DNA from: Fulvivirga ligni
GTDB taxonomy: Bacteria; Bacteroidota; Bacteroidia; Cytophagales; Cyclobacteriaceae
Direction: 5' to 3'
Length of the DNA stretch: 64,000 bases
Assembly (NCBI RefSeq): GCF_021389935.1
Contig: NZ_CP089979.1
Span: 5,623,001 to 5,687,000 of the forward strand
Below the pieces are notes generated by a model that searched no databases, had not been told where the DNA came from, and saw only the letters and a list, made by a program, of their open reading frames with translations. Made by a program: the position numbers and the translations under genes. Positions 1 through 27,084 of this stretch are shown piece after piece (positions within the stretch are counted from its first letter, which is position 1; every line of letters begins with the position of its first letter).

Positions 1-1544
1 GGCGCAGTCCAAAGCACTTCTGAAAGAGCCGCTAATCTTGGAAATACGACATACTCAATTTTTTCTGATGTAGGTAAATACTCTGACCATACATTGGCCT
101 GTGCCCCAAGGATAAATTTTTGCTCTTCGGCACTTAATGATTTCGGGGTAGGATCATAAGAATACACCTTTTCTAAGGTGGTGTAACCTGAAATTTGTAA
201 TGGCTCAAATTGCGGATCTCCCTGATAATGATCAAAATACATATGCGAACCTGGTGTCATCACCACGTAGTGAGATTCTTTAGCAGCAGCTATTCCTCCT
301 TCAGTTCCTCTCCATGACATCACCGCAGCATTAGGTGCTAATCCACCTTCGAGGATCTCATCCCAACCTATAATTTGTCGACCTTTTGAATTGATGAATT
401 TCTCAATACGGGTAATAAACCAGCTTTGTAGTTCATGCTCATTTTTCAATCCAAGTTCCTTTATTTTGGCTTGAACCTGAGGAGAAGCCTCCCACTGGTC
501 CTTCCAAGCTTCATCTCCTCCTATGTGAATGTATTTACCAGGAAACAGCTCTATCACCTCAGTAAGTACATCTTCCAAGAAATCAAAAGTTTGATCCTGA
601 ATACCATAAATATCTAAAAACACTCCCCATTCTGTTATTACTTTTGGCCTTTTTCCTGTAACGCCCAATTCAGGATAAGATGCTACGGCAGCGGTAGCGT
701 GTCCAGGCATTTCTATTTCCGGCACTACGGTAATATATCGCTCCCTTGCATAAGCTACAACTTCTTTAATCTCCTCTTGGGTATAGAATCCGCCATATCT
801 CTTACCATCATATTCCGTAGATCCTGCATGCCCAACCAATGTTTCATCCCTATATGCACCAATCTCCGTAAGTTTCGGATACTTCTTAATCTCTATTCTC
901 CAACCCTGATCATCAGTTAAATGCCAGTGAAAGGTATTTAATTTGTGCATGGCCATATTATCAATATATTCCTTGACAAATTCTACGGGGCTAAAATGTC
1001 TGGCCACATCCAGATGTAGACCTCGCCATTTGTAGCGAGGATAATCCCGGATAGATACTATGGGTAAAAGCCACTTTTTATTCTCAATAACCTGCTCACT
1101 TTCAATGGCTGTAGGCAAAAGCTGATTTAACGTTTGCATGCCATAAAAAAGTCCTGCGTGATCCTTACCTATTATTTCTGCCCCTGTATTTTCCACCTTA
1201 AGGGTATATCCCTCTTCTGGAACATCAAGAGTTTCATCTACCATAAAGAGTATACCTCCTTCAGCTTGGGTACCCTTTTCAATAGTTAATGTTACGCCAG
1301 AAGCTTTCTTAAACTTTTTCTGAAACTCTTCTGCTATCTTTTTAGATTCCTCATCACCTTCCTTAAAAAAGAGTTTGGTTTGCTCATTAACTAGGATGGC
1401 TCCCTTACCTTGCTCTATTTTTACTGGCCCAGGTATAATACTTACTGGCGCATTATATTCCTCTTCCTGAGGAATTGATATACTACAACTGGCTCCTAAT
1501 AGTAAAATTGACCAGATGTAGAATCTAAAAAAGTGAGTTTTCAT
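1..1544 (-). CDS. GH20 beta-N-acetylhexosaminidase lipoprotein (C-terminus cut by window edge)
   Basis: The frame reads from ATG at 1544 to the window edge without a stop (514 codons), so the C-terminus is missing. The N-terminus has a lipoprotein signal peptide with lipobox LGASC (Cys about residue 20), placing the enzyme on the periplasmic or outer-membrane face. A GH20b-like domain is followed by the GH20 barrel: motifs YKWRGLHLDVARHF, HWHLTDDQGWR and HIGGDEAW. The D344-E345 pair is the family's substrate-assisted catalytic pair (polarising Asp, acid/base Glu). It removes terminal beta-GlcNAc/GalNAc, here probably antennal or chitobiose GlcNAc of N-glycans. It is divergently transcribed from the GH29 operon, sharing the 193-bp gap that carries a LacI-type operator. 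Family assignment is certain; linkage is inferred. Confidence 0.95.
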   Translation of the reverse strand, partial: MKTHFFRFYIWSILLLGASCSISIPQEEEYNAPVSIIPGPVKIEQGKGAILVNEQTKLFFKEGDEESKKIAEEFQKKFKKASGVTLTIEKGTQAEGGILFMVDETLDVPEEGYTLKVENTGAEIIGKDHAGLFYGMQTLNQLLPTAIESEQVIENKKWLLPIVSIRDYPRYKWRGLHLDVARHFSPVEFVKEYIDNMAMHKLNTFHWHLTDDQGWRIEIKKYPKLTEIGAYRDETLVGHAGSTEYDGKRYGGFYTQEEIKEVVAYARERYITVVPEIEMPGHATAAVASYPELGVTGKRPKVITEWGVFLDIYGIQDQTFDFLEDVLTEVIELFPGKYIHIGGDEAWKDQWEASPQVQAKIKELGLKNEHELQSWFITRIEKFINSKGRQIIGWDEILEGGLAPNAAVMSWRGTEGGIAAAKESHYVVMTPGSHMYFDHYQGDPQFEPLQISGYTTLEKVYSYDPTPKSLSAEEQKFILGAQANVWSEYLPTSEKIEYVVFPRLAALSEVLWTA

Positions 1545-1737
1545 ATCATTTTCGTTAAAAAGGTTGACTTAAGTTTTTGATAGAATGACTGATTTGGGTT
1601 ATTCTATATTGACAAAACGTGAATTAACAAGATGCCAATTTACAAATGTTTGCGCACACATCTTCCAATTTTAAAGATTTTTATTTAAGATTGTATATCT
1701 GCAATTCTATTTAGCAAATCATTTAAAGGGAATATAT
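1545..1737. promoter_or_regulatory. Divergent promoter region between GH20 and the GH29 operon
   Basis: This 193-bp AT-rich gap separates two divergent genes and contains one copy of the locus operator near its middle (1646-1661). It should carry promoters in both directions. No unambiguous TTTG/TAnnTTTG pair could be fixed by eye. Confidence 0.6.
1646..1661. promoter_or_regulatory. LacI-family operator, site 1
   Basis: The sequence is ATGTTTGCGCACACAT, a near-perfect 16-bp palindrome with a central CG. It is one of eight copies in the locus, about 100 bp upstream of GH20 (minus) and 77 bp upstream of the GH29 start (plus), so one site may control both units. Binding by the LacI-family protein encoded at 14031 is inferred. 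Confidence 0.8.
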
Positions 1738-3150
1738 ATGTTTAAGAATCTGTTGTTATCAGCTATTTTAATGCTAGTAAGTATCCCCTCCTTGGTATCA
1801 GCACAGGAGAATAACCTTCACGGAATGTCATCAGAGTACGACTGGCCCAAAGACCCTAAAGTATTGAGTAAGCTGAATGAATGGCAAAACCTAAAGTTCG
1901 GAATGATTATCCACTGGGGGTTATACGCCCAGGCTGGAATAGTGGAATCATGGGAGCTCACCTCCGAAGACTGGATCAATAGAAAAGATTCTATGAGCTA
2001 TTGCGAGTATAAAGAATGGTACTGGGGACTTAGCAAAGAATTTAACCCGGTAAATTTCGCACCTGACCAATGGGCTCAAGCCGCAAAAGCTGCAGGAATG
2101 AAATATGTAGTTTTCACCACCAAGCATCATGATGGCTTTAACATGTTCGATACAAAAGAAACAGACTTTAAAATAACCAACGGTCCATTTGCCAACCATC
2201 CCAAAGCTAACGTGGCTAAATATGTATTTGAAGCCTTTAGAAATCAAGATATGATGATAGGGGCTTATTACTCTAAGCCAGATTGGCACTCACAATATTT
2301 CTGGTGGGACAAATATGGCTCTTGGGATAGAAATGTGAACTATAACCTGGGTGAGCATCCGGATAGATGGAACAAATACAAAGCCTTTACTTATAACCAG
2401 ATAAATGAGCTCACCTCAGACTATGGTAACATTGATATTTTATGGCTTGATGGTGGATGGGTAAGGGAAGGACGTAAGGTAAGAAACGGTGAACAAAGCA
2501 TTGATATTCCTAAAATAGCAGCCAGGGCCCGTGAAAATCAGCCCGGGTTATTAGTAGTAGACCGCACCGTACACGGCCCTTACGAAAACTACCAGACTCC
2601 AGAAAGAAGTATTCCTGATCGCCAGATCAACAATCCTTGGGAGAGCTGTATTCCACTGGCCAATAACTGGGGCTATGTCCCTAATGACAAATTAAAATCA
2701 TCAACAAAAATTATACATTCATTAGTAGAAATTGTAGCAAAGGGTGGCAGTCTTTTGCTGGGAATAGGCCCTAAACCAGATGGAACATTGAGAGATGGAG
2801 ATCTGAAAAGAATGGGGGAAATTGGCATATGGTTAGACAGTAATGGAAAAGCCATTTATAACACCAGAATTACTCCAGAATACAATGATGGAAACGTGTT
2901 TTTCACCAAAGGTCAGGCTGGAGAAACCTTTGCTATAGCTATTATAACCGAAGGAGAAGATACTCCCGCTACAATTAGCTGGAAGGGTAATTTACCTAAA
3001 AAGGGCAGCAGTGTAAAACTCCTCAGCTCAGGCAAAAAAGTAAAATGGACAGAGAAGAATGGGGAAGTGACTGTTACAATACCTAAGAGCTTCATTTCTA
3101 AAAATGCAAAATATCCTGCATTGGCCTTTGAATACAATGCCAAAAACTAA
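1738..3150 (+). CDS. GH29 alpha-L-fucosidase (A-type-like), secreted
   Basis: This 470-aa protein has a Sec signal peptide ending near VSAQ (residue 23). The GH29 barrel is recognised by FGMIIHWG, TTKHHDGFNMFDT and the nucleophile motif IDILWLDGGW, with D238 as the predicted nucleophile. A small C-terminal beta-sandwich follows. GH29 enzymes are retaining alpha-fucosidases. It resembles the general A-type rather than the B-type next to it, so the two probably attack different fucose linkages; core fucose is a plausible target here but unproven. It is first in a plus-strand operon, and its stop codon overlaps the next start (TAATG), indicating translational coupling. A weak purine-rich stretch (aaaggg) precedes the ATG. 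Confidence 0.93.
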   Translation: MFKNLLLSAILMLVSIPSLVSAQENNLHGMSSEYDWPKDPKVLSKLNEWQNLKFGMIIHWGLYAQAGIVESWELTSEDWINRKDSMSYCEYKEWYWGLSKEFNPVNFAPDQWAQAAKAAGMKYVVFTTKHHDGFNMFDTKETDFKITNGPFANHPKANVAKYVFEAFRNQDMMIGAYYSKPDWHSQYFWWDKYGSWDRNVNYNLGEHPDRWNKYKAFTYNQINELTSDYGNIDILWLDGGWVREGRKVRNGEQSIDIPKIAARARENQPGLLVVDRTVHGPYENYQTPERSIPDRQINNPWESCIPLANNWGYVPNDKLKSSTKIIHSLVEIVAKGGSLLLGIGPKPDGTLRDGDLKRMGEIGIWLDSNGKAIYNTRITPEYNDGNVFFTKGQAGETFAIAIITEGEDTPATISWKGNLPKKGSSVKLLSSGKKVKWTEKNGEVTVTIPKSFISKNAKYPALAFEYNAKN

Positions 3151-4619
3151 TGCTATTATCTATGCAAAGATTTTATAGACTTATGGCTGTGCTTTGCCTA
3201 CTGGGCGGTTTAGCTTGTGAAAACAAAAAAACTGTATCACCTCCTACGTCAATAGGTCCAGTACCAGATGCAAAACAAATGGAATGGCATAAAATGGAAA
3301 AAAATGCCTTTATTCATTTCACAATCAATACTTTTACGGATAAAGAATGGGGATATGGAGATGAATCTCCCGAGCTTTTTAATCCTACTGATCTTAATGT
3401 AGACCAATGGGTGAAGGTACTTAAAGAAACCGGTTTTAAAGGCGTGATTCTCACCTGCAAACACCATGATGGCTTTTGTTTATGGCCCTCCAAATATACT
3501 GAGCATACAGTAGCTAAAAGTCCTTATAAAAATGGTAAGGGTGACATTGCAAAAGAAGTCTCAGAAGCTTGTGAAAAGTATGGGCTGAAGTTTGGAGTTT
3601 ATCTGTCCCCTTGGGATCGAAACCGAGCAGACTACGGAGATTCTACTTACGTCACCTACTACAGAAACCAGCTAAAAGAGCTATTTACCTCATACGGAGA
3701 TGTTTTCGAAATGTGGTTTGATGGAGCCAATGGTGGTGATGGGTTCTATGGTGGCGCTGACGAAGTACGTAGGATAGAGCGTGAATCCTACTATCACTGG
3801 CCACAAACTCTTGATCTAGTCCGAAGTATACAGCCACAGGTGTTGTTTTTTAGTGACGGTGGACCAGACCTTAGATGGGGCGGTAATGAGGAGGCCAGAG
3901 CAGGTTTAACTAATTGGAACACCATCAGCACCGATACGCTTTACGCGGGCAAATCTGGTATTATGGACTTGCTTAATTCAGGATCTGAAAATGGAGTCAA
4001 TTGGGTACCCTTGGAAGCCAACACCTCTATCAGACCAGGATGGTTTTATCATGCTAAAGAAGATTCACTGGTTAAAACTCCAGAGCAGTTGATGGATATT
4101 TACCTGACTTCTGTAGGCCGTGGATCTACCCTATTACTTAATATCCCTCCAGATAAGCGAGGTCATTTTCATGAGAATGACATTGATGCTCTTAAAGGCT
4201 GGCATGCACTTCAGGAAAAAGAGTTCGCAAATAACCTCATCAAAAACACCAAAGTAACTGCATCATCTGTAAGAGGAAATGCTGAACAGTATGATGCTAG
4301 AAATGCGGTAGATGAAAACTATGATACTTACTGGGCTACGGATGATAATATCCAAACTGGATCATTGGAGGTAGAATTTAGCGGCGAACGAACCATTAAA
4401 TATGTTCTGTTGCAGGAATATATTCCTTTGGGGCAGAGAATAAAAGATTTCAGTATAGACGCTTGGATCAATGGTGGTTGGAAAGAAATAGCAAAAGGTA
4501 CAACTATCGGTTATAAAAGAATATTGAAGTTAGATGCTCCGGTAAAAACTGATAAGTTGAAAATTAATATTCTGGATAGCAAAGCTTGTCCGGTTATCAA
4601 TAATCTTGAGGTATACTAA
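3150..4619 (+). CDS. GH29-B-type alpha-1,3/1,4-fucosidase lipoprotein with discoidin domain
   Basis: This 489-aa protein starts inside the stop of the preceding gene (TAATG). The N-terminus is a lipoprotein signal with lipobox LGGLAC. The GH29 barrel contains HFTINTFTDKEW, LTCKHHDGFCLW and FEMWFDGANGG; D191 is the predicted nucleophile. HFTxNTFTDKEWG is typical of subfamily GH29-B, whose known members need a branched Gal/Fuc-GlcNAc (Lewis a/x) motif. Residues ~365-489 look like an F5/8 type C (discoidin, CBM32-like) domain. In this locus it could remove antennal alpha-1,4 (or 1,3) fucose before GH35 attacks the galactose. An alternative start (Met5, 3162) would still leave the signal intact. 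Confidence 0.92.
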   Translation: MLLSMQRFYRLMAVLCLLGGLACENKKTVSPPTSIGPVPDAKQMEWHKMEKNAFIHFTINTFTDKEWGYGDESPELFNPTDLNVDQWVKVLKETGFKGVILTCKHHDGFCLWPSKYTEHTVAKSPYKNGKGDIAKEVSEACEKYGLKFGVYLSPWDRNRADYGDSTYVTYYRNQLKELFTSYGDVFEMWFDGANGGDGFYGGADEVRRIERESYYHWPQTLDLVRSIQPQVLFFSDGGPDLRWGGNEEARAGLTNWNTISTDTLYAGKSGIMDLLNSGSENGVNWVPLEANTSIRPGWFYHAKEDSLVKTPEQLMDIYLTSVGRGSTLLLNIPPDKRGHFHENDIDALKGWHALQEKEFANNLIKNTKVTASSVRGNAEQYDARNAVDENYDTYWATDDNIQTGSLEVEFSGERTIKYVLLQEYIPLGQRIKDFSIDAWINGGWKEIAKGTTIGYKRILKLDAPVKTDKLKINILDSKACPVINNLEVY

Positions 4620-4687: not shown

Positions 4688-6247
4688 ATGCAAAAATTAC
4701 TTTATTTACTTGCCACAGTATTAGTTCTTTGGGGATGTAATGCCCCTTCCGAGAAATCAGAAAAGAAACTTCCAAGGGTAGCTATTGCCGGGTTAGCCAT
4801 AGAATCCAGCACCTTCTCCCCTGCTTTTACCCACGCAGAAGCATTTCATGCCAAAACTGGTGAAGATATACTTTCGCAATATCCGTTTATGGCTGCTGAT
4901 TCTGCTGACCGTAAAAGAGCGGAATGGATACCAACCCTTCAGGGACATGCTTTACCCGGAGGTGTAGTTACTAAAGAGGCTTATGATTCGCTGGTCAATG
5001 AAACCTTAAAAATGTTAAGCGAAAACGGTCCTTATGATGGTCTATTCTTCGATATTCATGGCGCCATGAGTGTGGAGGGCCTGGATGATCCTGAAGGAGA
5101 TTTTATCATTAAAATAAGAGAAGTAACTGGTCCTGAAACCATTATATCCACTTCTATGGATCTACATGGTAATGTATCCTGGAGACTGGCTGAAAATTCT
5201 GACCTGATCACTTGCTATAGAATGGCCCCGCATGAAGATGCGTTGGAGTCTAAGCAAAGAGCATTAGAAAATTTATTAGACCGCCTTGAAAGCGGCAAAG
5301 GCAAGCCTGCTTACAAGGCATGGATACCCGTGCCCATTTTATTACCCGGGGAAAAAACAAGTACCCGCATAGAGCCTGGCAAAAGTCTTTATGCTCAAGT
5401 AGCCCCGGCTGCTAATCAGGAAGGTATTGTAGACGCCGCTATCTGGATTGGTTATGCATGGGCAGATGCTCCCAGAAATCATGCTGTAGTAATGGTGACA
5501 GGCGACGACCAGAAAAAAGTAAGTAAAACTGCAGAAGAGCTTGCAAAAAGTTTCTGGGAAGTGCGTGGCGCATTTGACTTTGTAGCCCCCACTGCCACGC
5601 TAAAAGAAAGCTTAGACATGGCTATTGCCAGCCAAAAACATCCATTCATTATCAGTGATACCGGAGATAACCCTACCGCTGGTGGCGCAGGAGATGTGAC
5701 CTGGACTTTACAGGAAATCCTGAAACGTCCTGAGTTTAAATCTGTAAATGGTCCGTCATTAATTTACGCCTCAATACCTGGCCCAGAATTCGTAAAAAAA
5801 GCAAAAGAAATAGGTGTTGGAGGTGAAATTAGTGCAACTGCTGGGGCGGCCATTGATTCAAGGTTCGCCCCGCCTGTATTGCTAGAAGGTACCATAGAAA
5901 CTATTGAAGATGGTGATATTCATGCTGAAACAGAAGTAGTGGTAAAAGTGGGCAGCATACATGTTATAGTTACTAAAAAAAGAAAGCCCTATCACCATGA
6001 AAGCGATTTTACTAACCTAGGTCTCAAGCCAAAAGAAACCGATATCGTGGTAGTAAAGATCGGATATCTGGTACCAGAGTTGTATGACATGAGAGCAGAC
6101 TGGATCATGGCACTAACTCCAGGAGGTGTAGATCAAGATCTTGAGCGCTTAGGACATAAAAACATCAAAAGGCCTATGTATCCTTTGGATGCAGATATGG
6201 AGACCCCTGACCTTTCAGCCCAAATGGTCCCTTTATCTGGTAAGTAA
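4688..6247 (+). CDS. M81/MlrC-like (DUF1485) metallopeptidase lipoprotein
   Basis: This 519-aa protein has lipobox VLWGC (Cys17). It belongs to the microcystinase C (MlrC)/DUF1485 family, Zn-dependent enzymes that cut amide bonds in peptides. Candidate metal ligands: FDIHGAM (D122, H124), SMDLHGN (D158, H160) and APHED (H182). The C-terminal MlrC domain contains SDTGDNPTAGGAGD (~residue 325). It lies between GH29-B and GH35 in the same operon (18-bp gap to GH35). A peptidase/amidase in an N-glycan-type PUL is unusual. It may process the peptide or the GlcNAc-Asn linkage left on glycopeptides, but no sequence feature proves this. The family call is firm and the substrate unknown. Confidence 0.88.
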   Translation: MQKLLYLLATVLVLWGCNAPSEKSEKKLPRVAIAGLAIESSTFSPAFTHAEAFHAKTGEDILSQYPFMAADSADRKRAEWIPTLQGHALPGGVVTKEAYDSLVNETLKMLSENGPYDGLFFDIHGAMSVEGLDDPEGDFIIKIREVTGPETIISTSMDLHGNVSWRLAENSDLITCYRMAPHEDALESKQRALENLLDRLESGKGKPAYKAWIPVPILLPGEKTSTRIEPGKSLYAQVAPAANQEGIVDAAIWIGYAWADAPRNHAVVMVTGDDQKKVSKTAEELAKSFWEVRGAFDFVAPTATLKESLDMAIASQKHPFIISDTGDNPTAGGAGDVTWTLQEILKRPEFKSVNGPSLIYASIPGPEFVKKAKEIGVGGEISATAGAAIDSRFAPPVLLEGTIETIEDGDIHAETEVVVKVGSIHVIVTKKRKPYHHESDFTNLGLKPKETDIVVVKIGYLVPELYDMRADWIMALTPGGVDQDLERLGHKNIKRPMYPLDADMETPDLSAQMVPLSGK

Positions 6248-6265: not shown

Positions 6266-8116
6266 ATGAACATCAGAAATAATATTTTAATTATACTCTT
6301 TTGCCTGCTGGCAATAACACAAGGAAAAGCTCAGACGCAGTTTGACATTGGCAATGGCAGCTATTTAGCCGATGGTAAGCCTATTCATATTTACTCTGGC
6401 GAAATGCACTATTCGAGAATACCGAAAGAATATTGGCGCCATAGAATGAAAATGGTTAAAGCCATGGGCCTTAACACTATTGCCACTTACGTATTTTGGA
6501 ACTACCATGAAGTGGCGCCCGGCGTTTGGGATTTTACTTCAGAAAATAAAAATCTGGCAGAATACATTAAAATAGCACAAGAAGAAGGACTTTATGTAAT
6601 ACTGAGACCTGGACCTTATGTATGTGCAGAATGGGAGTTTGGTGGTTATCCTTATTGGCTTCAAAACAATCCAGACCTACAAATAAGAACAAATAATCAG
6701 GCCTTCCTGGATTCCTGTAGGGTATATCTCACCAAACTTGCTGAGCAGGTAGCAGACCTACAGTTGAGCAAAGGAGGCAATATAATTATGACCCAGGTGG
6801 AGAATGAATTTGGCTCCTATGTATCTCAAAGGGAGGATATTAGCGCCAATGATCATCTCATATACAGGACCAAAATTTACAAGATGCTTCAGGAAGTAGG
6901 TTTTGAAGGACCTTTCTTCACCTCTGATGGCAGTTGGCTCTTTGAAGGTGGGGCCATAGATGGTGTGTTACCTACTGCTAACGGTGAGGGCAATGTTAAT
7001 AATCTAAAAAAAGCAGTTAATAAATATCATAATGACCAAGGACCATACATGGTGGCAGAATTTTACTCCGGCTGGTTAGACCACTGGGCAGAAGAATTCA
7101 TTACCATAGGCTCGCAAAGCCTGGTAGATCAGACTAAAACATATCTGGAAAATGGCGTAGATTTCAATTTTTATATGGTTCACGGCGGCACCAACTTTGG
7201 CTTTACCAGTGGCGCTAATTATAACGAGGAGCATGATATACAACCAGACTTGACTAGCTATGACTATAATGCTCCTATTAGCGAAGCCGGTTGGCCAACA
7301 GAGAAGTACATGGCACTACGTGAGCTTATGACAGCGCATGTATCTTACAAAATACCTGATTTACCTGATATGATACCGGTGTTAGAGATTCCGGAAATAA
7401 AAATTTCACAAGCTTACGACGCTCTTTCCTATATAAAAAAGCAGGTTGCAATTAAGAATGATACGCCCCTGACCTTTGAAAAACTAGGTCAGGCAAGTGG
7501 GTATGTGCTTTATAAAAAGCGTTTCACCCAGCCCATTAGTGGTAAGCTACAAATTAAAGGTCTTAGGGATTTTGCCACGGTTTATGTAAATGGAAAAATG
7601 AAAGGTCAACTTAACCGAGTATTTAATAACTATGAAATGGACATAAACATTCCTTTCAATGGAACGCTGGAAATTTTGGTAGAAAACCTAGGTAGAATTA
7701 ACTATGGCGCTAAAATTACAGAAAATAACAAAGGTATTATTAGCCCTGTACTGATCAATGATTATGAGATAACAGGAAATTGGGAAATGTACCAAGCTCC
7801 ATTTGATCAAGTACCTTCTTTCATTGACAACACATCACCGAAAAAGGGTAATCCGGTAATCTATGAAGCCAGCTTCAAGCTGAAGAAAACCGGAGACACC
7901 TTTCTGGACATGAGCAACTGGGGCAAAGGAATTGTCTATGTAAACGGACATCATATAGGAAGATATTGGCATGTAGGTCCACAGCAAACCTTGTACATTC
8001 CAGGGTGTTGGCTAAATAAGGGAGAAAATGAGATAGTCATATTCGAACAATTGAATGAGACACAACAGACCTCACTAAAAACAGTACGTAAACCAATTTT
8101 AACCGTTTTAAAATAA
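6266..8116 (+). CDS. GH35 beta-galactosidase, secreted
   Basis: This 616-aa protein has a Sec signal peptide ending near GKAQ (residue 23). The GH35 barrel shows GEMHYSRIPKEYW, ILRPGPYVCAEWEFGG, the acid/base motif QVENEFGSY (E181) and the nucleophile motif MVAEFYSGWLDHW (E265). Beta-sandwich domains follow (~400-616), including GIVYVNGHHIGRYW. GH35 enzymes are retaining exo-beta-galactosidases, often favouring beta-1,3 linkages, which fits a Lewis-a-type antenna (Gal beta-1,3 GlcNAc). It is the last gene of the GH29-GH29-M81-GH35 operon and is followed by a clear intrinsic terminator. Family is certain; linkage is inferred. Confidence 0.95.
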   Translation: MNIRNNILIILFCLLAITQGKAQTQFDIGNGSYLADGKPIHIYSGEMHYSRIPKEYWRHRMKMVKAMGLNTIATYVFWNYHEVAPGVWDFTSENKNLAEYIKIAQEEGLYVILRPGPYVCAEWEFGGYPYWLQNNPDLQIRTNNQAFLDSCRVYLTKLAEQVADLQLSKGGNIIMTQVENEFGSYVSQREDISANDHLIYRTKIYKMLQEVGFEGPFFTSDGSWLFEGGAIDGVLPTANGEGNVNNLKKAVNKYHNDQGPYMVAEFYSGWLDHWAEEFITIGSQSLVDQTKTYLENGVDFNFYMVHGGTNFGFTSGANYNEEHDIQPDLTSYDYNAPISEAGWPTEKYMALRELMTAHVSYKIPDLPDMIPVLEIPEIKISQAYDALSYIKKQVAIKNDTPLTFEKLGQASGYVLYKKRFTQPISGKLQIKGLRDFATVYVNGKMKGQLNRVFNNYEMDINIPFNGTLEILVENLGRINYGAKITENNKGIISPVLINDYEITGNWEMYQAPFDQVPSFIDNTSPKKGNPVIYEASFKLKKTGDTFLDMSNWGKGIVYVNGHHIGRYWHVGPQQTLYIPGCWLNKGENEIVIFEQLNETQQTSLKTVRKPILTVLK

Positions 8117-13883: not shown

Positions 13884-13899
13884 ATGTGTACGCACACAT
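13884..13899. promoter_or_regulatory. LacI-family operator, site 2
   Basis: The sequence is ATGTGTACGCACACAT, a 16-bp palindrome with one asymmetric position. It is immediately upstream of the TATATTTG box and 21 bp (start to start) from site 3. Confidence 0.85.
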
Positions 13900-13907
13900 T
13901 ATATTTG
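13900..13907 (+). promoter_or_regulatory. Candidate -7 promoter box (TATATTTG)
   Basis: TATATTTG fits the Bacteroidota -7 consensus TAnnTTTG and points toward the lacI gene. A 17-nt stretch covering the operator half plus this box (13891-13907) recurs exactly at 17324-17340, upstream of the NagB fusion. No well-spaced TTTG -33 element was found, so this remains a candidate. Confidence 0.45.
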
Positions 13908-13920
13908 TTTGCGCAAACAC
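13905..13920. promoter_or_regulatory. LacI-family operator, site 3
   Basis: The sequence is TTGTTTGCGCAAACAC; its inner 14 bases (13906-13919) are a perfect palindrome. It overlaps the end of the candidate -7 box, so occupancy would block transcription toward lacI. Confidence 0.8.
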
Positions 13921-14030
13921 TTAAGGTCGAAATAATTACCTATATTAAATGTCAAGATGACTAACTATATAACCATGAGCATCTGATCTTTAATAATTAT
14001 TTAATTTTGGCTAGCGTAAAGAATCAATTC

Positions 14031-17285: not shown

Positions 17286-17301
17286 ATGTGCGCGCACACA
17301 A
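17286..17301. promoter_or_regulatory. LacI-family operator, site 4
   Basis: The sequence is ATGTGCGCGCACACAA, 16 bp with a GTGCGCGCAC core. It lies 20 bp after the GH3 stop and 31 bp (about three turns) from site 5. Confidence 0.8.
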
Positions 17302-17316: not shown

Positions 17317-17332
17317 TTGTGTGCGCACACAT
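17317..17332. promoter_or_regulatory. LacI-family operator, site 5
   Basis: The sequence is TTGTGTGCGCACACAT; its core TGTGTGCGCACACA is a perfect palindrome. It abuts a TATATTTG -7-like box and lies 43 bp upstream of the NagB-fusion start. Confidence 0.85.
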
Positions 17333-19491: not shown

Positions 19492-20385
19492 TTAATGTAA
19501 AATACCTTGGTGATTAGAAAGATTTTCCTTGATCTGAATATTCATTTCACACACTGCAGCAGCACCCATAATAGCCACTTCATTCATTTCAGATTTCTCA
19601 ACAACGAGATTATCAATAACTCTTTTATAAGGAAAGGTGTGTAAGACATCCCACATTGATTCCTCAAAAAGAGGATATGCATCTTTAATTGAGCCTCCGA
19701 TAAAAATTGCCTCCGGTGCCACTACATGAAGTAAATATTTTAACAAATGTCCAAGATGTAAACCATACTGTTTAAAAATACCGCGGCTAATCTCATGACC
19801 TTCCATCGCTTTTTGAAAGACAGTTTTCCCATCCAAACCAAATTCTTTTTTGAAGAATTTGCCACTACAATAATGTTCATAATTATGAAGCATATAAGGG
19901 ATTGCTCCTACCTCTCCTGCTGCTGACATAATCCCAGTATGCAGCTGACCATTAAATACGAACCCCACACCAAGACCTGTTCCCAATGCTAATCCTGCTA
20001 TACTTTTATATCGGGCGCCACCACCATATATTTTTTCACCTACGGCAAAACAATTAGCATCATTTGCTAAATAAACATCCACTTTGAATCGCGCCTGCAC
20101 TGCATCGGACAAATAAACCTCATTCCAAGAGGGTATATTTATTAAGTCATATATAATACCGTTACCAGCATCTAAAAGCCCAGGAACACCTATGCCTACA
20201 CCTTCAATAGTATAGCCTTCTGATATTTCTTCTATACCGTCAAGTAAAACATTGATGATGACTTGCTTCGATTCCATGGCTGGCGTGTCCAATTGCATTT
20301 TCTTAACCAATTGTCCTTCTTGGATCACCCCTATACTGATAGTTGTGCCTCCAATATCGACACCAATGACGGCCTTATTTGACAT
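19492..20385 (-). CDS. ROK-family sugar kinase without the usual zinc motif
   Basis: This 297-aa cytoplasmic protein has the ATP phosphate motif DIGGTT (10-15), catalytic base motif LANDAN (D109), LALGTGLGVG (132-141) and E158. ROK kinases phosphorylate hexoses such as glucose, mannose, GlcNAc or ManNAc. The family's zinc site (GH...CxCGxxGCxE) is missing: the His position reads GEVGA and only one Cys (Cys173, in EHYCSGKFF) is present. It is the last gene of the GH92-MFS-ROK unit but has its own operator 93 bp upstream. In this pathway it would make GlcNAc-6-P or Man-6-P; which one cannot be read from the sequence. Confidence 0.88.
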   Translation of the reverse strand: MSNKAVIGVDIGGTTISIGVIQEGQLVKKMQLDTPAMESKQVIINVLLDGIEEISEGYTIEGVGIGVPGLLDAGNGIIYDLINIPSWNEVYLSDAVQARFKVDVYLANDANCFAVGEKIYGGGARYKSIAGLALGTGLGVGFVFNGQLHTGIMSAAGEVGAIPYMLHNYEHYCSGKFFKKEFGLDGKTVFQKAMEGHEISRGIFKQYGLHLGHLLKYLLHVVAPEAIFIGGSIKDAYPLFEESMWDVLHTFPYKRVIDNLVVEKSEMNEVAIMGAAAVCEMNIQIKENLSNHQGILH

Positions 20386-20477: not shown

Positions 20478-20493
20478 TTGTGTGCGCACACAG
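20478..20493. promoter_or_regulatory. LacI-family operator, site 6
   Basis: The sequence is TTGTGTGCGCACACAG, with perfect core palindrome TGTGTGCGCACACA (20479-20492). It lies in the 145-bp gap between the MFS stop and the ROK start, so the kinase probably has its own regulated promoter. On the minus strand a TTTG precedes it and an AT-rich TAAAAATT follows about 18 bp later. Confidence 0.82.
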
Positions 20494-20530: not shown

Positions 20531-21796
20531 TTATTTCAATCCTATTTTATGTCCTCTGATTGCAAAATAGCAAATGTAGGCATAACAAGGTAAGAGCATG
20601 AGGTAAGCCGATCGGCCATCCCAAACATGAGCTAGCCTACCATATATTAACGGCAATATGGCTCCACCTGAAATAGCCATTATCAGTAATGCGGAACCTT
20701 TAGGTGCGTACTTTCCCAAGTTGAAAATAGATAACGGAAAAATTGCCGGCCACATTAATGAGTTAGCTAATCCCAAAAGAGCAATAAAGGCTACCGATAC
20801 AAACCCATTGGTCAAAATTGCTCCTATTGTAAACAACATGCCCAATAGCGCACAAATAGTTAGTGCCTTAGCTTGGGAGATGAATTTAGGAATAGTGAAT
20901 ATGCCGACTATATACCCAATAAGCATACACACTAAAGTCAGCTGGGTAAAGTATCTTGCTACAGACAAAGAAATGCCTATTGACTTACCATAGCTTATTA
21001 TTGTATCTCCAGCTATTACCTCAGCTCCCACATATAGGAATAGCGCCAAAACACCCAGAAATAGGTGTGGAAACTCAAATATACTCTCTCTGCTATTCGC
21101 AACACCAGTTTTAATAGTTACCTCATCTGATTTCTCTCCATCGATTTCGGGTAATGATGAAAGTCCAATTGCAAATGCTAAAATAGCCAAGACTACAGCA
21201 ATAATACTATAGGGTATAATAACCCGAGATGCCAGTTCGTCGAGTGCTATAGTCTTTTCCGTAGCATCCATAGTAACTAGAGAAGTCTCCAAGGCATCTA
21301 CATCACTGAGCGCAATATAGCCAAAGATCAAGCCAGCAAGGATCCCTGCCACCTTATTCGAAATACCCATGATGCTAATTCTCGTAGCCGCACTCTGAGG
21401 TGAACCAATAGCTGAAACATACGGATTAACCGCTGTTTGTAAAAGGGCCAACCCGGAACCAATTATAAAAAGACCGAATAAGAAGAAAGAATAACTTCTT
21501 ATCATGGCGGCCGGAACAAATATAATAGAACCTATAGCCATGACTATTAGCCCCATGGACATCCCCAATTTGTACCCAACCTTGTCTAATACGTAAGATG
21601 ATGGTAACGCCATCAGTGTATAAGCGATATAAAAGGCAGTAGCTACCAAATAAGCTTGTGTTTCTGTCTCTAGCTGACATGCTATTTGCAAATACGGAAT
21701 TAAAGTACCGTTAACCCAAGTAGCAAAACCTATGATGAAAAACAGTATGCCAATGATTGTCATAGAAATGACGAAACTTTTTTTCTTTTGGGGCAT
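20531..21796 (-). CDS. MFS sugar permease, FHS family (FucP/GluP/NagP-like)
   Basis: This 421-aa inner-membrane protein has about 12 hydrophobic helices. The N-terminal segment FFIIGFATWVNGTLIPYLQ, then GFKLG-like VGYKLGMSMG and LALLQTAVNPYVSAIG, are hallmarks of the fucose:H+/glucose-galactose/NagP symporter family. It probably imports one of the released monosaccharides (GlcNAc, fucose or mannose). It sits 17 bp after GH92 and ahead of the ROK kinase, a common PUL pairing of permease and kinase for the same sugar. The substrate is not determinable from the sequence. Confidence 0.92.
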   Translation of the reverse strand: MPQKKKSFVISMTIIGILFFIIGFATWVNGTLIPYLQIACQLETETQAYLVATAFYIAYTLMALPSSYVLDKVGYKLGMSMGLIVMAIGSIIFVPAAMIRSYSFFLFGLFIIGSGLALLQTAVNPYVSAIGSPQSAATRISIMGISNKVAGILAGLIFGYIALSDVDALETSLVTMDATEKTIALDELASRVIIPYSIIAVVLAILAFAIGLSSLPEIDGEKSDEVTIKTGVANSRESIFEFPHLFLGVLALFLYVGAEVIAGDTIISYGKSIGISLSVARYFTQLTLVCMLIGYIVGIFTIPKFISQAKALTICALLGMLFTIGAILTNGFVSVAFIALLGLANSLMWPAIFPLSIFNLGKYAPKGSALLIMAISGGAILPLIYGRLAHVWDGRSAYLMLLPCYAYICYFAIRGHKIGLK

Positions 21797-21813
21797 AAAC
21801 GTGGTATTTAAAA

Positions 21814-24096
21814 CTATTTGATAAAGTGCTTTGGAATAGAAGCTGGTCTATTTTTATCTAAAACTCCAAATTCAGAAGAAGGCTTGTCACCCATTTCTAT
21901 GATTAATACACCGCCTTTTGAAAGCATAGAATAGGGTATTGCAGAGCTCATATACTGCTGGCCATTCCATGCTACCTGCTGAATATACTTATTAGTGGAG
22001 CTATTGTTATTTACTATTATATCTAACTTATTGCCCCCGATGTATAAAGTGGCATTTTCAATGATCGGGCTACCAAATAGAAAATCGCCATTCGCCGGAC
22101 TGAGCTGATAAAAACCAAGTGCGGACAGCACATACCAAGCTGACATTTGGCCAACGTCTTCATTACCGCAAATACCAGCTGGAATATCCTGATAGAGGCT
22201 GTCCATGATATATCGAACCTTATCTGCGGTCTTCCACGGCTTACCTACATAATTATATAAGTATGGTATATGATGACTAGGCTCATTACCTTGAGCGTAT
22301 TGACCTATAAGACCTGAAATATCAGGTGAGGCTTCTTTACCAAGATCCCCTTCAACTATGAATAAGCTATCTAACTTCTTTTCAAAAGATTCCTCACTGC
22401 CAAATAAAGAAATAAGGCCCTCCACATCGTGAGGAACCAGCCATGTATATTGCCAGGCATTTCCTTCAGTGTAATCACCCCAAATATGTGTAGATGTGAA
22501 AGGATTAAGAGGTGAGCGGAAACTGCCATCATCCAATTTGGCTCTCATGAATTGAGAATCTTTATCAAAATACTGCTCATAAGCATGAGCTCTTTTATTG
22601 AAATATAGATAATCCTCAGTTTTACCCAGCGACTTGGCCATATAGGCTATACTCCAATCTGCCAGGCAATATTCCAACGCCTTCGATACAGATTCCTTCT
22701 CAAGATCTGCCGGTATATACCCTTTCTCTTTAATATACTTCATTCCATAATCATCACGCATGGAGGAAGCTTTCATAGCTTTAAAGGCCAATTCTCCATC
22801 AACATCAAACCCTTTAAAATAAGCATCCGCTATCACTGGTATAGAAGGATAACCTACCATGCAATCAGTCTCATTACCCACCAAATGCCAAATCGGAAGC
22901 TTGCCTTGTTGATTATATATGTTCAAAAAACTTTTCACAAAATCCTTGACCCTCTCTGCTTGCACTAGGGTATATAATGGATGTGCCGCTCTGTAGGTAT
23001 CCCATAGCGAATAAGTTGTATAGTTATGGAAGCTAGTGTCTGTATATACTTTTCCATCAGCACCACGATATTGACCATTTATATCCTGAAAAATTGATGG
23101 AGCTATCATGGTGTGGTACAATGAAGTATAAAAAACTTTCATTTGTTTCTCAGTGGGCATAGAAACCTGCACTTTGCTTAGCTCCTGATTCCATTCTCTA
23201 TTCGCAACCGAAGCCACCTCCTGAAAATCCCAATTGGGAATCTCTTTCGAAAGATTGTCACGAGCATTTTCTATACTTACAGGAGATATTCCGGTTTTAA
23301 TCATTAAATCTCCATTAGCAAGCTTATCGAAAACTAGTGCTACTTTTAACTTTTGCCCTTCCAGCATAGCTCCACCTGTAAACACTTCATTTTTATCCGT
23401 CACCAATTTGCTTAATGGCGAAGATAATTTCATATAGAAATATATTCTTTGATTTACCGCCCACCCTTTAGAATATCTAAAGCCCTGAATAGTGCTGTCA
23501 TTAATCCATTCAATCTGTGTATCAGTGGGCGAATCCCAGCCAATACCTCTTTCTAGGTCCAGTATAACATTGTATGAACCGGAACTCTTATAATTATAAT
23601 GCTGAAAACCGGCGCGCTTAGTAGCTGTAAGTTCTACTGCCACTTGATATTTATCTATCCATACCCCATAATATCCTGGACGCACTTCCTCATCTTTATG
23701 ACTATAATAGGCCACATACCCTTCGTCCATAGTTGAATCTTTTATAGACCCTCTATTTAAATTAACTTCACCCGTAGTAGGCATAAGTAAAACATCTCCA
23801 AGATCACCTATACCCGTACCACTAAGATGGGTATGAGAAAAGCCGATAACAGTGGTGTCGCTATAATGATACCCTGAGCACCAGTCCCAACCTTCAGTAA
23901 GGTTGGTAGGGCCTAACTGAACTGCTCCGAACGGAACGTTGGCGCCTAAGAAGACATGTCCGTGAAAACCTGTACCTATATATGGATCTACAAAATCACT
24001 ATAGCTAATAAAATTATTAGTTTCTGAAGCATCACGTTCAACGGTGCAACCGCTCAATATCATTAAGATTGCTATTGGTAAGAAAAACCTGATCAT
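21814..24096 (-). CDS. GH92 exo-alpha-mannosidase lipoprotein
   Basis: This 760-aa protein has lipobox ILSGC (Cys16). The N-terminal beta-sandwich carries VDPYIGTGFHGHVFLGANVPFGAVQLGP and GFSHTHLSGTG. The (alpha/alpha)6 domain contains LYHTMIAPS, WHLVGNETDCMVGY, and GNEDVGQMSAWYVLSALGFY with E646-D647, the segment carrying the family's catalytic carboxylates. GH92 enzymes are Ca2+-dependent inverting alpha-mannosidases of N-glycans and yeast mannan. It heads a minus-strand operon with the MFS and ROK genes and has an operator 141 bp upstream. It strongly supports an N-glycan-type substrate; the mannose linkage is not predictable. Confidence 0.96.
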   Translation of the reverse strand: MIRFFLPIAILMILSGCTVERDASETNNFISYSDFVDPYIGTGFHGHVFLGANVPFGAVQLGPTNLTEGWDWCSGYHYSDTTVIGFSHTHLSGTGIGDLGDVLLMPTTGEVNLNRGSIKDSTMDEGYVAYYSHKDEEVRPGYYGVWIDKYQVAVELTATKRAGFQHYNYKSSGSYNVILDLERGIGWDSPTDTQIEWINDSTIQGFRYSKGWAVNQRIYFYMKLSSPLSKLVTDKNEVFTGGAMLEGQKLKVALVFDKLANGDLMIKTGISPVSIENARDNLSKEIPNWDFQEVASVANREWNQELSKVQVSMPTEKQMKVFYTSLYHTMIAPSIFQDINGQYRGADGKVYTDTSFHNYTTYSLWDTYRAAHPLYTLVQAERVKDFVKSFLNIYNQQGKLPIWHLVGNETDCMVGYPSIPVIADAYFKGFDVDGELAFKAMKASSMRDDYGMKYIKEKGYIPADLEKESVSKALEYCLADWSIAYMAKSLGKTEDYLYFNKRAHAYEQYFDKDSQFMRAKLDDGSFRSPLNPFTSTHIWGDYTEGNAWQYTWLVPHDVEGLISLFGSEESFEKKLDSLFIVEGDLGKEASPDISGLIGQYAQGNEPSHHIPYLYNYVGKPWKTADKVRYIMDSLYQDIPAGICGNEDVGQMSAWYVLSALGFYQLSPANGDFLFGSPIIENATLYIGGNKLDIIVNNNSSTNKYIQQVAWNGQQYMSSAIPYSMLSKGGVLIIEMGDKPSSEFGVLDKNRPASIPKHFIK

Positions 24097-24236
24097 TTAA
24101 ATACTATTTTTTAAATCTATAAGAGGGATAGACCATTAACATTTGTGAATTCAATAATTTCCAGTGCTCCCGTTTGAGGGGCTAAAGATATATTATAAAT
24201 TTCACATCATAATATTAAAATCATTATTTTTGAGCA

Positions 24237-24252
24237 ATGTGTACGCAAACAC
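24237..24252. promoter_or_regulatory. LacI-family operator, site 7
   Basis: The sequence is ATGTGTACGCAAACAC, 141 bp upstream of the GH92 start on the minus side. It is the most divergent copy in the right half-site. Confidence 0.75.
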
Positions 24253-24403
24253 AAAGAAATATAATAAAGTTTATATGTTGAAATATTTTCTTTTTGTAGA
24301 GAAAAAATAGTTCAAAAGGAAATGAGCCAACTTTTGGTACGCCAAGCTCTGTCTGAAAACCACACCAAATTTTTTTTAACAAAAAAAATTATAAATTTGA
24401 ATA

Positions 24404-24419
24404 ATGTGTGCGCACACAA
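24404..24419. promoter_or_regulatory. LacI-family operator, site 8
   Basis: The sequence is ATGTGTGCGCACACAA, with perfect core palindrome, 26 bp before the GH2 start. At this distance it would overlap the 5' leader or promoter, consistent with repression. Confidence 0.85.
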
Positions 24420-24444
24420 ATCTTTATCAACTAATTTTCAAGGT

Positions 24445-27084
24445 ATGACTTCAAATCTAATCTCACTTTTCATCATTGGCAGTTTTTTCGCTATAATATC
24501 AACTCATACACAAGCACAGGATGTCAGAGAATTAAATTCCGGCTGGAAATGTGCTCCAATAGGAGAAGTAGGCCACAACGGAAAAGCCCTGTCACAACAA
24601 GATTATGATATTAATAGCTGGCTTCCAGCCACTGTACCTGGAACGGTTCTCACTACCTTATTAAACAACCAAAAGGTACCTGACCCCTTTTATGGTATGA
24701 ATAATCTCGAGATACCAGATATATACGAAACCGGCCGGGATCACTATACTTATTGGTTTGTAAAAGATTTTGAAATGAGCATCAAAAAAGGTGAAGAAGC
24801 CTGGTTAAATTTCAGAGGAATAAATTATAGCTGCGATGTATTCTTAAACGGAAAACAGGTAAACGAGCAACGTCATAAAGGAATGTTTTTAAGGCAATCA
24901 TACAATATCACCTCTTTTTTAACTTCTAATGGTAGCAACAGACTAGCGGTAATTGTATACCCTCCAGATCCGGTGGGCAACCCTAACGGAGGCCAGGGTG
25001 GAGATGGTACAATTGCTAAAAACGTAAGTCATCAATATGTGGCAGGCTGGGATTGGATTCAACCCATCAGAGACAGAAATACCGGTATATGGGATAAAGT
25101 TACATTGGAAAAAACAGGCGCTATTAATATCAAAAACCCTCAAGTGATAACCAAGGTGCCCGGCTTAAGAAAGAGTAATGCTAACCAACAAAATGATGCT
25201 ATCCTTATAGTTTCGACTGAATTAGAAAACCCAACCAATCAAGCGGCGGAAGGCACAATCAGTTACGAACTTAACGGCAATACTATAAGTCAGTCAGTTA
25301 CTATTCCTGCAAATCAAACCATCAAAGCTAACCTGCCTAACTTCAGCATCAAAAACCCAAAACTATGGTGGCCAAACGGATATGGAGCACAAAACTTATA
25401 CGATATTACGCTCACCTTTAAAGAGAAAAAGAAAGTATCCGATGAGCAAAAGATTTATTTTGGGATTCGTGAAATCAGCAGAGAATGGAATGATCACACA
25501 CAAAGTATGCAGGTCATGGTTAATGGACAAAAAATCTTTATTAAGGGAGGCAACTGGATCATTTCTGATGCCATGTTAAGATTCACTCCAGAAAGATACG
25601 ATGCAGAGATTAGATTTCACCGTGATATGAACCTCAACCTTATCAGAATTTGGGGCGGGGCATTGGCAGAGAGACCAGAATTTTATGAAGCATGTGATAA
25701 ATATGGCCTATTAGTGATACAAGATTTCTGGATGTCAGGTGACTGTAACGGCAAATGGGTAGATCCGATGAAACTAGAAGATCAGTGGACTCGCCGAAAG
25801 TACCCTGATGATCATAGTCTCTTTATTGAATCTGCTCGTGACATGGTTAAAATGATAAGAAATCACCCCTCATTGGCCATATATTGTGGTGGAAATGAGA
25901 TCACACCTCCAGAGGATATACTGGAAGCACTTCAAAATGATGTGTTGAGTAAAGAAGACGGCACACGTTGGTTCATCACATATTCGAACTCTGATAGCAT
26001 GTCGTTAAATACCATCGGGGGAAACGGAGATGGCCCATATACTATACAGTCTACCGATGTATTTTGGAATCACAAGACTTGGCCATTTAATTCTGAAGTA
26101 GGCTCAGTAGGCGTGGGAGATATTGAGTCATTAAAAAGATTTATTCCCAAGGAGCATCTCACTCCCCCAACCTTTAATGACTCCACTGTAGACAAGGTTT
26201 GGGATTACCATAAATACATCGGTTACGAGCATCACATACGCCCTTATGGAGATGCTACTGATGCCCGGGATTTTGGCAGAAAGGCTCAGCTGGTTAACTA
26301 TAATCAATATAGGGCACTCATGGAAGGATTTAGTTCTCACATGTGGGAATGGTACACGGGCACCATTATATGGAAGACTCAAAACCCCTGGACAGCCATG
26401 CGCGGACAAATGTATGACTATTATCTAGACCCCAACGCCTGTCTGTATGGTTTACGCAAAGGTGGTGAATCCGTGCACGTAATGTATAACCACACCAATG
26501 GTATGATAATGGGGGTAAACAATTCGTTTGACACTTACCATAACCTGATGCTCAAGGTAGAAACCATTGATATGGCAGGTAACAAAAAACTATTTACGCA
26601 AGTAGTAGTGGGTTTAGAACCTACTTCTGCTAAAAAGTATTTATCAATGAAAAGCTATGTAGATAAAGTAGCGAAGGATGATGGCCTGTTTTTGAAGCTT
26701 CAGTTGTTGAATATGGATCAAAATATGATCTCTGAAAATTTCTATTGGATTCCTGATAAAAATGGTACGTACAGTGGACTAAAACAATTACCTTCTGTAG
26801 CCATTACCTGTAATGCATATTTAGTTGAAGAAGGTAAAATAAACGTAAGCCTTAAGGCTAATGAAAGCGGACCGGTAGCTTTTTTCAATAGAATATCATT
26901 GGTAGATGAGAGTAACCAAGAACGTATTTTACCTGTTTTTTATGATGACAATTATATATCGCTAACAGCAGGAGAAACTAAAACTGTGACCCTGGAATAT
27001 GACTCTTCAAAGTTAGATATTGCAACAGCTAAAATTTCAATTGAAGGCTGGAATGTTAAAGAGCAACTTCTACCTATAGAGTAA
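24445..27084 (+). CDS. GH2 beta-mannosidase, secreted
   Basis: Start chosen at ATG 24445 (MTSNLISLFIIG), giving 879 aa with a Sec signal ending near HTQAQ; the longer frame from 24322 would translate operator 8. Domains: GH2 jelly-roll (ELNSGWKC..., ~30-200), Ig-like (~220-320), TIM barrel (~330-600) and two C-terminal beta domains. Motifs VFLNGKQVNEQRHKGMF, IRIWGGALAERPEFYEACD, IYCGGNE (acid/base E485) and WPFNSEVGS (nucleophile E551) are those of beta-mannosidases. It would release the core beta-1,4-mannose of Man-GlcNAc2 after GH92 and GH3 act. It is a single-gene unit under its own operator. Confidence 0.94.
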   Translation: MTSNLISLFIIGSFFAIISTHTQAQDVRELNSGWKCAPIGEVGHNGKALSQQDYDINSWLPATVPGTVLTTLLNNQKVPDPFYGMNNLEIPDIYETGRDHYTYWFVKDFEMSIKKGEEAWLNFRGINYSCDVFLNGKQVNEQRHKGMFLRQSYNITSFLTSNGSNRLAVIVYPPDPVGNPNGGQGGDGTIAKNVSHQYVAGWDWIQPIRDRNTGIWDKVTLEKTGAINIKNPQVITKVPGLRKSNANQQNDAILIVSTELENPTNQAAEGTISYELNGNTISQSVTIPANQTIKANLPNFSIKNPKLWWPNGYGAQNLYDITLTFKEKKKVSDEQKIYFGIREISREWNDHTQSMQVMVNGQKIFIKGGNWIISDAMLRFTPERYDAEIRFHRDMNLNLIRIWGGALAERPEFYEACDKYGLLVIQDFWMSGDCNGKWVDPMKLEDQWTRRKYPDDHSLFIESARDMVKMIRNHPSLAIYCGGNEITPPEDILEALQNDVLSKEDGTRWFITYSNSDSMSLNTIGGNGDGPYTIQSTDVFWNHKTWPFNSEVGSVGVGDIESLKRFIPKEHLTPPTFNDSTVDKVWDYHKYIGYEHHIRPYGDATDARDFGRKAQLVNYNQYRALMEGFSSHMWEWYTGTIIWKTQNPWTAMRGQMYDYYLDPNACLYGLRKGGESVHVMYNHTNGMIMGVNNSFDTYHNLMLKVETIDMAGNKKLFTQVVVGLEPTSAKKYLSMKSYVDKVAKDDGLFLKLQLLNMDQNMISENFYWIPDKNGTYSGLKQLPSVAITCNAYLVEEGKINVSLKANESGPVAFFNRISLVDESNQERILPVFYDDNYISLTAGETKTVTLEYDSSKLDIATAKISIEGWNVKEQLLPIE

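Follow-up and report, generated by a model that had tools for sequence, protein, structure and literature searches.

How would a bacterium of the genus Fulvivirga take apart complex N-glycans of the plant/invertebrate type, and how much of that work could a single locus encode? We analysed a stretch of 64,000 nucleotides (positions 5,623,001–5,687,000 of the complete one-contig 6.52-Mb genome of Fulvivirga ligni, NZ_CP089979.1), which is called the window below and to which coordinates refer unless a genome position in Mb is given. The locus in question extends from −345, the end of a gene of glycoside hydrolase family 20 (GH20), to 27084. We consider it probable that it is a LacI-controlled polysaccharide utilisation locus which imports plant/invertebrate-type complex N-glycans, probably as glycopeptides, and dismantles them.

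The genes are arranged as follows: GH20 (minus strand); GH29-A, GH29-B, M81 and GH35 (plus); SusD and SusC (minus); LacI, GH3 and a NagB-PIG-L fusion (plus); a ROK kinase, a NagP-like transporter of the major facilitator superfamily (MFS) and GH92 (minus); and GH2 (plus). An earlier sequence-only reading of this DNA had named GH20, two GH29 enzymes (A and B), GH35, GH3, NagB, GH92 and GH2, and Pfam searches recovered each of them at or near the place it had been given; the M81/MlrC, SusD, SusC, ROK and MFS genes come in addition to that list. A SusC/SusD pair thus stands among clustered carbohydrate-active enzymes (Pfam). Judged by family, there are candidate enzymes for the fucose, galactose and N-acetylglucosamine (GlcNAc) of the antennae and for the mannose, xylose and fucose of the core, and the target which that reading had proposed, N-glycans of plant/invertebrate type, is well supported at the level of sequence.

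A shared operator and a single predicted regulon

The intergenic regions of the locus have in common a 14-bp palindrome, TGTKTRCGYAMACA. There are seven exact copies of it in the 6.52-Mb genome and all of them lie inside the locus; the expectation is 0.00 in 100 shuffles of the window and about 0.5 per genome by base composition. The pattern was derived from five of the seven exact sites, the remaining two being independent finds. Together with a site that has one mismatch, the motif scan gives eight sites in the locus: TGTTTGCGCACACA between GH20 and GH29-A (1647..1660), two between SusC and LacI (13885–13898 and 13906–13919), two before the likely nagB start (17318–17331, exact, and 17287–17300, with the mismatch), TGTGTGCGCACACA before ROK (20479..20492), one between GH92 and GH2 (24238..24251) and one before the likely GH2 start (24405..24418). 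By the original gene starts the sites at 17318 and 24405 fall inside genes (the NagB open reading frame (ORF) opens at 17288 and the GH2 ATG is at 24322). These starts are therefore likely to be wrong, and NagB more likely begins at 17375 (ATG) and GH2 at 24445, which directly precedes a signal peptide. When both are moved, all eight sites are intergenic. Members of the regulon outside the locus were also sought and rejected, since the seven one-mismatch sites elsewhere in the genome all lie within ORFs of at least 118 amino acids.

For comparison, we used the neighbourhoods of 80 related GH2 genes and a set of random control regions. From 551 confirmed matches in named Bacteroidota genomes the best 80 were taken; their neighbourhoods represent 33 genus or metagenome-assembled-genome groups, extend at most 10 kb to either side (less where a contig ends) and include the locus of Fulvivirga sediminis (G107). 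Of 40 control regions drawn, from nine genomes of the host family, 39 were used, as one overlapped another; they are slightly shorter than the neighbourhoods and not genus-matched. No operator site was found in these 39 regions (780 kb). In the loci of two species of the same genus, a slightly looser pattern gives four sites in G107 and five in a second genome, G165, located before GH2/GH92, ROK (G107), NagB, a second SusC (G165) and GH29-A/GH20; no site lies between SusC and LacI in either of the two. One such site, between SusC and LacI, is present in a genome of another genus, whose LacI is 49% identical to that of F. ligni. The LacI-family regulator itself (14007..15101, plus strand, Pfam) has counterparts of 71% and 75% identity (the latter over 199 amino acids) in the two same-genus loci.

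The shared predicted operator, with all seven exact copies of the genome in one locus, agrees with the claim of the sequence-only reading that there is one locus with one regulator. That the locus has a single regulator is well supported and, as a statement about sequence, firm; LacI is predicted to act through the palindrome, with an inducer presumably related to the proposed substrate.

Proposed trimming enzymes and the GH2 at the core

The proposed order of events is the following. GH29-B would take off the antennal fucose, GH35 the β-1,3-galactose, GH20 the antennal GlcNAc, GH92 the α-1,3-mannose, GH3 the core β-1,2-xylose and GH29-A the core fucose. GH2 would then cleave Man-β1,4-GlcNAc endo-wise and yield Man-α1,6-Man, after which GH20 would split the chitobiose and a glycosylasparaginase, encoded elsewhere in the genome and within the locus in two same-genus species, would free the last GlcNAc from asparagine (Asn). 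The GlcNAc would enter through the NagP-like carrier, to be processed by the ROK kinase and NagB. The order and each of the substrates are predicted from family membership and nearest relatives.

GH29-B (3150..4619, plus; Pfam 3.6e-39; with an F5/8 domain and the lipobox GLAC) matches the PDB entries 8ayr, 5k9h, 4zrx and 3ues and groups with α-1,3/4-fucosidases (3ues and others). GH29-B enzymes are described as favouring Lewis epitopes (PMC11189522), and we propose that this one is a putative antennal (Lewis a) fucosidase. The A-type α-L-fucosidase (1738..3150, plus; Pfam 8.3e-91; nearest PDB entry 6gn6), which has a signal peptide, would be the core fucosidase. The nearest solved relatives of the GH35 β-galactosidase (6266..8116, plus, Pfam) are 6eon, 3d3a and 4mad. 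The last of these prefers Gal-β1,3-GlcNAc. The GH35 of the locus is proposed as a candidate antennal β-1,3-galactosidase. The GH20 β-N-acetylhexosaminidase (−345..1544, minus, 629 amino acids; Pfam 1.7e-123 for the part within the window) has the lipoprotein-like signal LLGASC. By direct reading of the sequences, lipoprotein-like leaders are found in GH20, GH29-B, M81, SusD and GH92, and ordinary signal peptides in GH29-A, GH35, GH3 and GH2.

The GH92 α-mannosidase (21814..24096, minus, Pfam; lipobox LSGC) scores 585 bits against 6f8z (BT3130), 574 against 7zgm (from Bacteroides massiliensis) and 564 against 6f91, and at most 349 against all other PDB entries. Two members of this top-scoring group are described as α-1,3-mannosidases: BT3130 and 7zgm, which in B. 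massiliensis acts on plant N-glycans and tolerates their xylose. The GH3 (15112..17265, plus, Pfam), proposed as the core β-1,2-xylosidase, is xylosidase-like by NCBIfam models, with all scores below the model cut-offs. In a tree, the GH3s of the locus type form one clade with support 100/100, apart from 20 GH3s from elsewhere in the taxonomic family of the host, including the host's own second GH3. Of the 23 rows labelled as linked in this tree, 21 share a locus with GH2 and two do not (in G074 the GH2 is about 54 kb away, and in G132 there is no GH2 in the stretch read); several rows are near-copies from one genus (Mucilaginibacter), the unlinked rows all come from one family, and 12 neighbourhoods with a GH3 of another type (about 30% identical) were left out.

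GH2 (24445..27084, plus, Pfam) is the enzyme on which the reading of the core step depends. Among solved structures, the exo-glucosaminidase CsxA matches it best and over nearly the whole length; exo-mannosidases match mainly the first half, with a lower score. The catalytic GS-D/E of CsxA is replaced by GG-N-E, the acid/base pair being N525-E526, and W444 aligns with a Glu of CsxA; E592 is a further residue of the signature (all numbered from the ATG at 24322). The NE motif and the Trp, which replaces a conserved His, are present in all ten aligned GH2 sequences. According to PMC12243196, the NE acid/base and the Trp mark the β-mannosidase subfamilies and not the glucosaminidase subfamily, which has an SD motif and Glu; the assignment of the locus enzyme as a GH2_16 exo-β-D-glucosaminidase was therefore rejected. 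The same source gives both marks for the exo and the endo β-mannosidase subfamilies alike, and counts three characterised enzymes in GH2_17, all from plants and none bacterial. Concerning the domains (Pfam), the locus GH2 contains Ig_GlcNase and lacks the Ig_mannosidase domain found in the exo-type GH2 of the same genome, so that GH2_17, the endo-β-mannosidase subfamily, is the better fit as judged from motifs and domains. Of the earlier description as a β-mannosidase, the mannosidase residue marks are retained and the standard exo type gives way to the endo subfamily. With the plant GH2_17 enzymes the locus GH2 shares the NE motif and the Trp in place of His (PMC12243196); it differs from them in being bacterial and in carrying a signal peptide, a feature read from its own N-terminus. 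Endo-β-mannosidases of the plant type tolerate α-1,6-mannose. They cleave Man-β1,4-GlcNAc of the N-glycan core (PMC3871823).

The remaining genes would serve import and use of the sugars. These are the SusD-like surface glycan-binding lipoprotein (8684..10252, minus; lipobox AIGC), the SusC-like TonB-dependent outer-membrane importer (10271..13660, minus), the fusion of glucosamine-6-phosphate deaminase with a de-N-acetylase-like part (NagB-PIG-L, 17375..19291, plus; NF002557, 1041 bits), the ROK-family sugar kinase (19492..20385, minus), which is proposed as an N-acetylglucosamine kinase and for which no NCBIfam model scores above its cut-off, and the NagP/GluP-like MFS sugar transporter (20531..21796, minus), which scores 287 bits with TIGR01272 (above the cut-off) and 390 bits with the NagP model NF046060 (below its cut-off of 625); all five also have Pfam matches.

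Release from the protein and competing explanations

How the glycan leaves the protein is the step for which the locus itself offers no gene. The sequence-only reading had placed a possible endo-enzyme to the left of position 1. The left flank turned out to be a separate locus with ECF-sigma, FecR and SusD genes, and no endo-enzyme is among the 9 of 13 ORFs scanned in the adjoining stretch. In this flanking locus an ORF of 743 amino acids without a Pfam match stands at the place expected of a SusC, beside SusD and behind the FecR and ECF sigma genes. Genome-wide, there is no match to the C-domain of PNGase F (PF09113), a search that did not extend to enzymes of the PNGase A type, and none to GH85 (PF03644). 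GH18 is represented by five domains in four ORFs, and the two ORFs examined are chitinase-like: the one near a second GH92 (6.21 Mb) was considered as an endoglycosidase and rejected, as the nearest solved GH18s are chitinases, and the one examined from a pair at 3.77 Mb carries a chitin-binding-type module.

In both same-genus loci a gene of the glycosylasparaginase family follows directly after GH20 (PF01112 in G107, a 90% relative in G165). The host has its own glycosylasparaginase at 3.51 Mb, in which the HDT motif is intact and which aligns with a solved glycosylasparaginase at 5.6e-119. We propose that the glycan is trimmed down to GlcNAc-Asn and that this enzyme then acts. In the host it lies behind a CBM9 and a GHL10 gene in a mini-cluster at 3.506–3.510 Mb (the GHL10 scores 27.6 bits in Pfam, just below the cut-off of 27.9). 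The same three genes occur together in three further genomes (G200, G160 and G007), in G007 beside GH92 and SusC/D-like genes, and CBM9–GHL10 pairs are found inside the GH2 loci of Pontibacter, Pedobacter, Hymenobacter, Desertivirga, Pararcticibacter and Hufsiella. GHL10 is present in 15 of 20 genomes with GH2 against 46 of 370 without it, and by genus in 5/6 against 18/78, counts that are uncorrected for relatedness and leave a pair of GH2 matches of 34% identity out of the positives. In the literature searches, GHL10 is not mentioned among the matches listed for GHL10 and N-glycans, nothing was found on Fulvivirga and N-glycans, and the one paper found for glycosylasparaginase, N-glycans and Bacteroides is, by its abstract, unrelated.

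In another course of events, an enzyme encoded away from the locus would release the glycan, and the locus would handle free glycans and not glycopeptides. That enzyme could be an acid PNGase like PNGase A of plants, or else an endoglycosidase not yet described, for which GHL10 is an example. We hold this course for a real possibility, although short of an even chance. The searches for absent enzymes covered the PNGase F type, GH85 and GH18 and left the PNGase A type aside, and GHL10 of at least 75% identity occurs in exactly those 3 of the 15 Fulvivirga genomes drawn that have GH2 (three others have relatives of 37–39%). GHL10 has no sequence match in the PDB; its structure model is a predicted glycosidase-like barrel whose fold neighbours are headed by Cwp19 and PgaB (template-modelling scores 0.57–0.64), and its gene stands beside that of the glycosylasparaginase. 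On the other hand, the operator does not extend to the host GHL10, confidence in the structure model is modest (mean predicted local distance difference test, pLDDT, 71.8) and the list of similar folds also includes fucanase, galactosidase, β-mannosidase and amylase structures. A bolder combination of ideas goes further: GH2 would be a bacterial endo-β-mannosidase that closes a known gap by taking Man-α1,6-Man off chitobiose, and the unlinked CBM9–GHL10–glycosylasparaginase set would be a new de-glycosylation unit, with GHL10 as a new endo-β-N-acetylglucosaminidase-like family that, in part of the environmental Bacteroidota, does the work of PNGase and of GH18/GH85. Taken as a whole, this combination is rather doubtful.

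Two further explanations concern the core step and the substrate. The target may be the same N-glycan and GH2 an ordinary exo-β-mannosidase which acts once the α-1,6-mannose is gone, taken off by GH92 or GH125, so that the pathway would run as in Xanthomonas or Bacteroides and its core step would not be new. The genome does encode one GH125, outside the locus, and the second GH92 (62% identical to that of the locus); GH125 is found in 9 of the 80 neighbourhoods and in none of the 39 controls, and the NE and Trp marks, which PMC12243196 gives for both subfamilies, fit either mode. The CsxA-type best match of GH2 and its set of immunoglobulin-like domains, both described above, speak against this explanation, which we regard as somewhat unlikely. 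Clearly less probable is that the locus is directed at a different algal or invertebrate glycan, one that carries fucose and xylose, and that plant-type N-glycans serve as a side substrate. The host shares its genus with F. sediminis, which is presumably marine, and the GH3 family also includes xylan enzymes; against this, GH92, GH20, the type of GH2, NagB and ROK, together with the same-genus glycosylasparaginase, jointly indicate mannose and GlcNAc next to Asn, and no endo-xylanase or galactanase family is found among the locus genes (Pfam).

The reading of the locus as a PUL for N-glycan glycopeptides with an endo-acting GH2 also has to be set against several results that weigh on the other side. 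With GH125 in the genome and in related neighbourhoods, α-1,6-mannose could be removed without an endo enzyme, though GH125 enzymes could equally act on the released disaccharide. The Mannosidase_ig match of the locus GH2 is just below the cut-off, and, as noted, its GH2_17 placement is based on motifs and domains. The host glycosylasparaginase has no operator nearby and is 64% identical to the in-locus copy of G107, below the 70–83% of the shared locus genes (SusC/D excluded). The C-domain of PNGase F was matched in 15 of 147 genomes of the family, G107 included; in this one draw it is present in 4 of the 8 genomes with GH2 (at least 55% identity) and in 11 of the 139 others. The PNGase F type thus often accompanies GH2, and its absence in F. 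ligni is not a rule. Finally, 25 of the 80 neighbourhoods contain, within 10 kb, none of the eleven locus-type families counted in the next section.

Distribution across Bacteroidota and relation to known pathways

Eleven families were counted as locus-type: GH92, GH3, GH20, GH29-A, GH29-B, GH35, GH125, NagB-PIG-L, ROK, MFS and glycosylasparaginase. The 80 neighbourhoods and the 39 controls compare as follows: GH92 40 vs 2, GH3 31 vs 1, GH20 28 vs 1, GH29-A 22 vs 1, GH29-B 19 vs 0, MFS 17 vs 2, NagB-PIG-L 15 vs 0 and ROK 15 vs 2, and, among the other genes counted, CBM9 13 vs 0 and GHL10 8 vs 0. GH35 (6 vs 0, p 0.087), glycosylasparaginase (5 vs 0, p 0.13) and LacI (4 vs 0, p 0.2) are none of them significant alone, and SusD does not differ significantly from the controls (p 0.3). 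At an identity of at least 40%, the counts are 39 vs 0 for GH92, 19 vs 1 for GH3, 16 vs 1 for GH20 and 19 vs 0 for GH29-A. At least five of the eleven families are present in 24/80 neighbourhoods. For the seven GH families alone, at least four are found in 22/80, and none of the 39 controls has more than one. The neighbourhood of Desertivirga arenae contains eight families, its GH3 being of a 32% type. The arrangement is a locus type shared among environmental Bacteroidota and not unique to F. ligni; GH2 also occurs outside such loci.

The sequence-only reading had set the single locus apart from the scattered loci of gut Bacteroides. The scattering holds for B. massiliensis; the uniqueness is weakened by the Xanthomonas nix cluster and by the 24 neighbourhoods with at least five of the eleven families. 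In B. massiliensis (Crouch et al. 2022, PMC9522356) the same GH29, GH20, GH92 α-1,3-mannosidase and GH3 xylosidase are described in the order proposed here for F. ligni, together with a type II PNGase, which releases the glycan, and a GH2 galactosidase, and the genes are spread across several loci. That pathway ends at Man-α1,6-Man-β1,4-GlcNAc-β1,4-GlcNAc, with no enzyme removing the α-1,6-mannose reported at the time; a 2023 review names GH38 enzymes for this step (PMC10154615). F. ligni differs from B. massiliensis in having one regulon, a GH35 galactosidase, a GH2 of the endo-β-mannosidase type and no PNGase of the F type. The nix cluster of Xanthomonas reportedly has an exo-type GH2 and is said to lack a SusC/D pair. 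According to PMC5700972, this cluster for breaking down plant N-glycans contains GH29 (NixE) and GH35 (NixL), as the F. ligni locus does, adjoins a cluster for GlcNAc (nag) utilisation and carries a GH18-type protein (NixF). Xanthomonas belongs to a different phylum, and there is no GH18 in the F. ligni locus. Plant N-glycan loci as such are thus known from Bacteroides and Xanthomonas, and the locus of F. ligni departs from these pathways as a variant that combines a single LacI regulon with GH35 and an enzyme of the GH2_17 type, and has no PNGase of the F type.

The locus would be a co-regulated toolset for stripping plant and insect glycans off proteins, and it would give a physiological context to a GH2 subfamily without a characterised bacterial member. 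Its GH2 is a concrete candidate for removing the α-1,6-mannose end of the N-glycan core, and the GHL10 proteins are flagged as possible N-glycan enzymes.

Several observations were made beside these results. The sole GH125 (4.62 Mb) adjoins a distant GH92-like gene (26% identical to the locus GH92), near a SusC-like piece and without an operator. At 6.21–6.22 Mb the second GH92, a CutC-family gene, two CBM6 proteins and the exo-type GH2 lie together; the CBM6 proteins have secretion-tail matches (below the cut-off in one of them), and the other one is a GH18. CutC-type genes are also found near GH2 in 7 of the 80 neighbourhoods. In both same-genus loci an ORF of 317 amino acids without a Pfam match (75% alike in the two) lies between ROK and NagB; it was not seen in the F. 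ligni locus.

The lipoprotein-like M81/MlrC metallopeptidase (4688..6247, plus, Pfam) sits within the fucosidase–galactosidase operon. It is absent from both same-genus loci and from all 80 neighbourhoods and, like PNGase, which is also found in 0/80, from the 39 controls. M81 matches occur in 82 of 245 genomes of the family, nearly all at 66–80% identity; the copy of G165 lies far from the N-glycan locus of that genome, and copies from other genera (up to 80%) are closer to that of F. ligni than the G165 copy (69%). We read M81 as an accessory insertion; a role as replacement for the glycosylasparaginase was considered and rejected, given its wide occurrence in the family, its distance from the G165 locus and its absence from the related neighbourhoods. 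Immediately to the right of the locus, at 27307–27331, there is a fragment resembling the 3' end of a tRNA, GGTTCAAATCCTGCCGCCCCGACTA, with no full tRNA within the window or in the 40 kb to its left; this fragment may be the remnant of an integration site.

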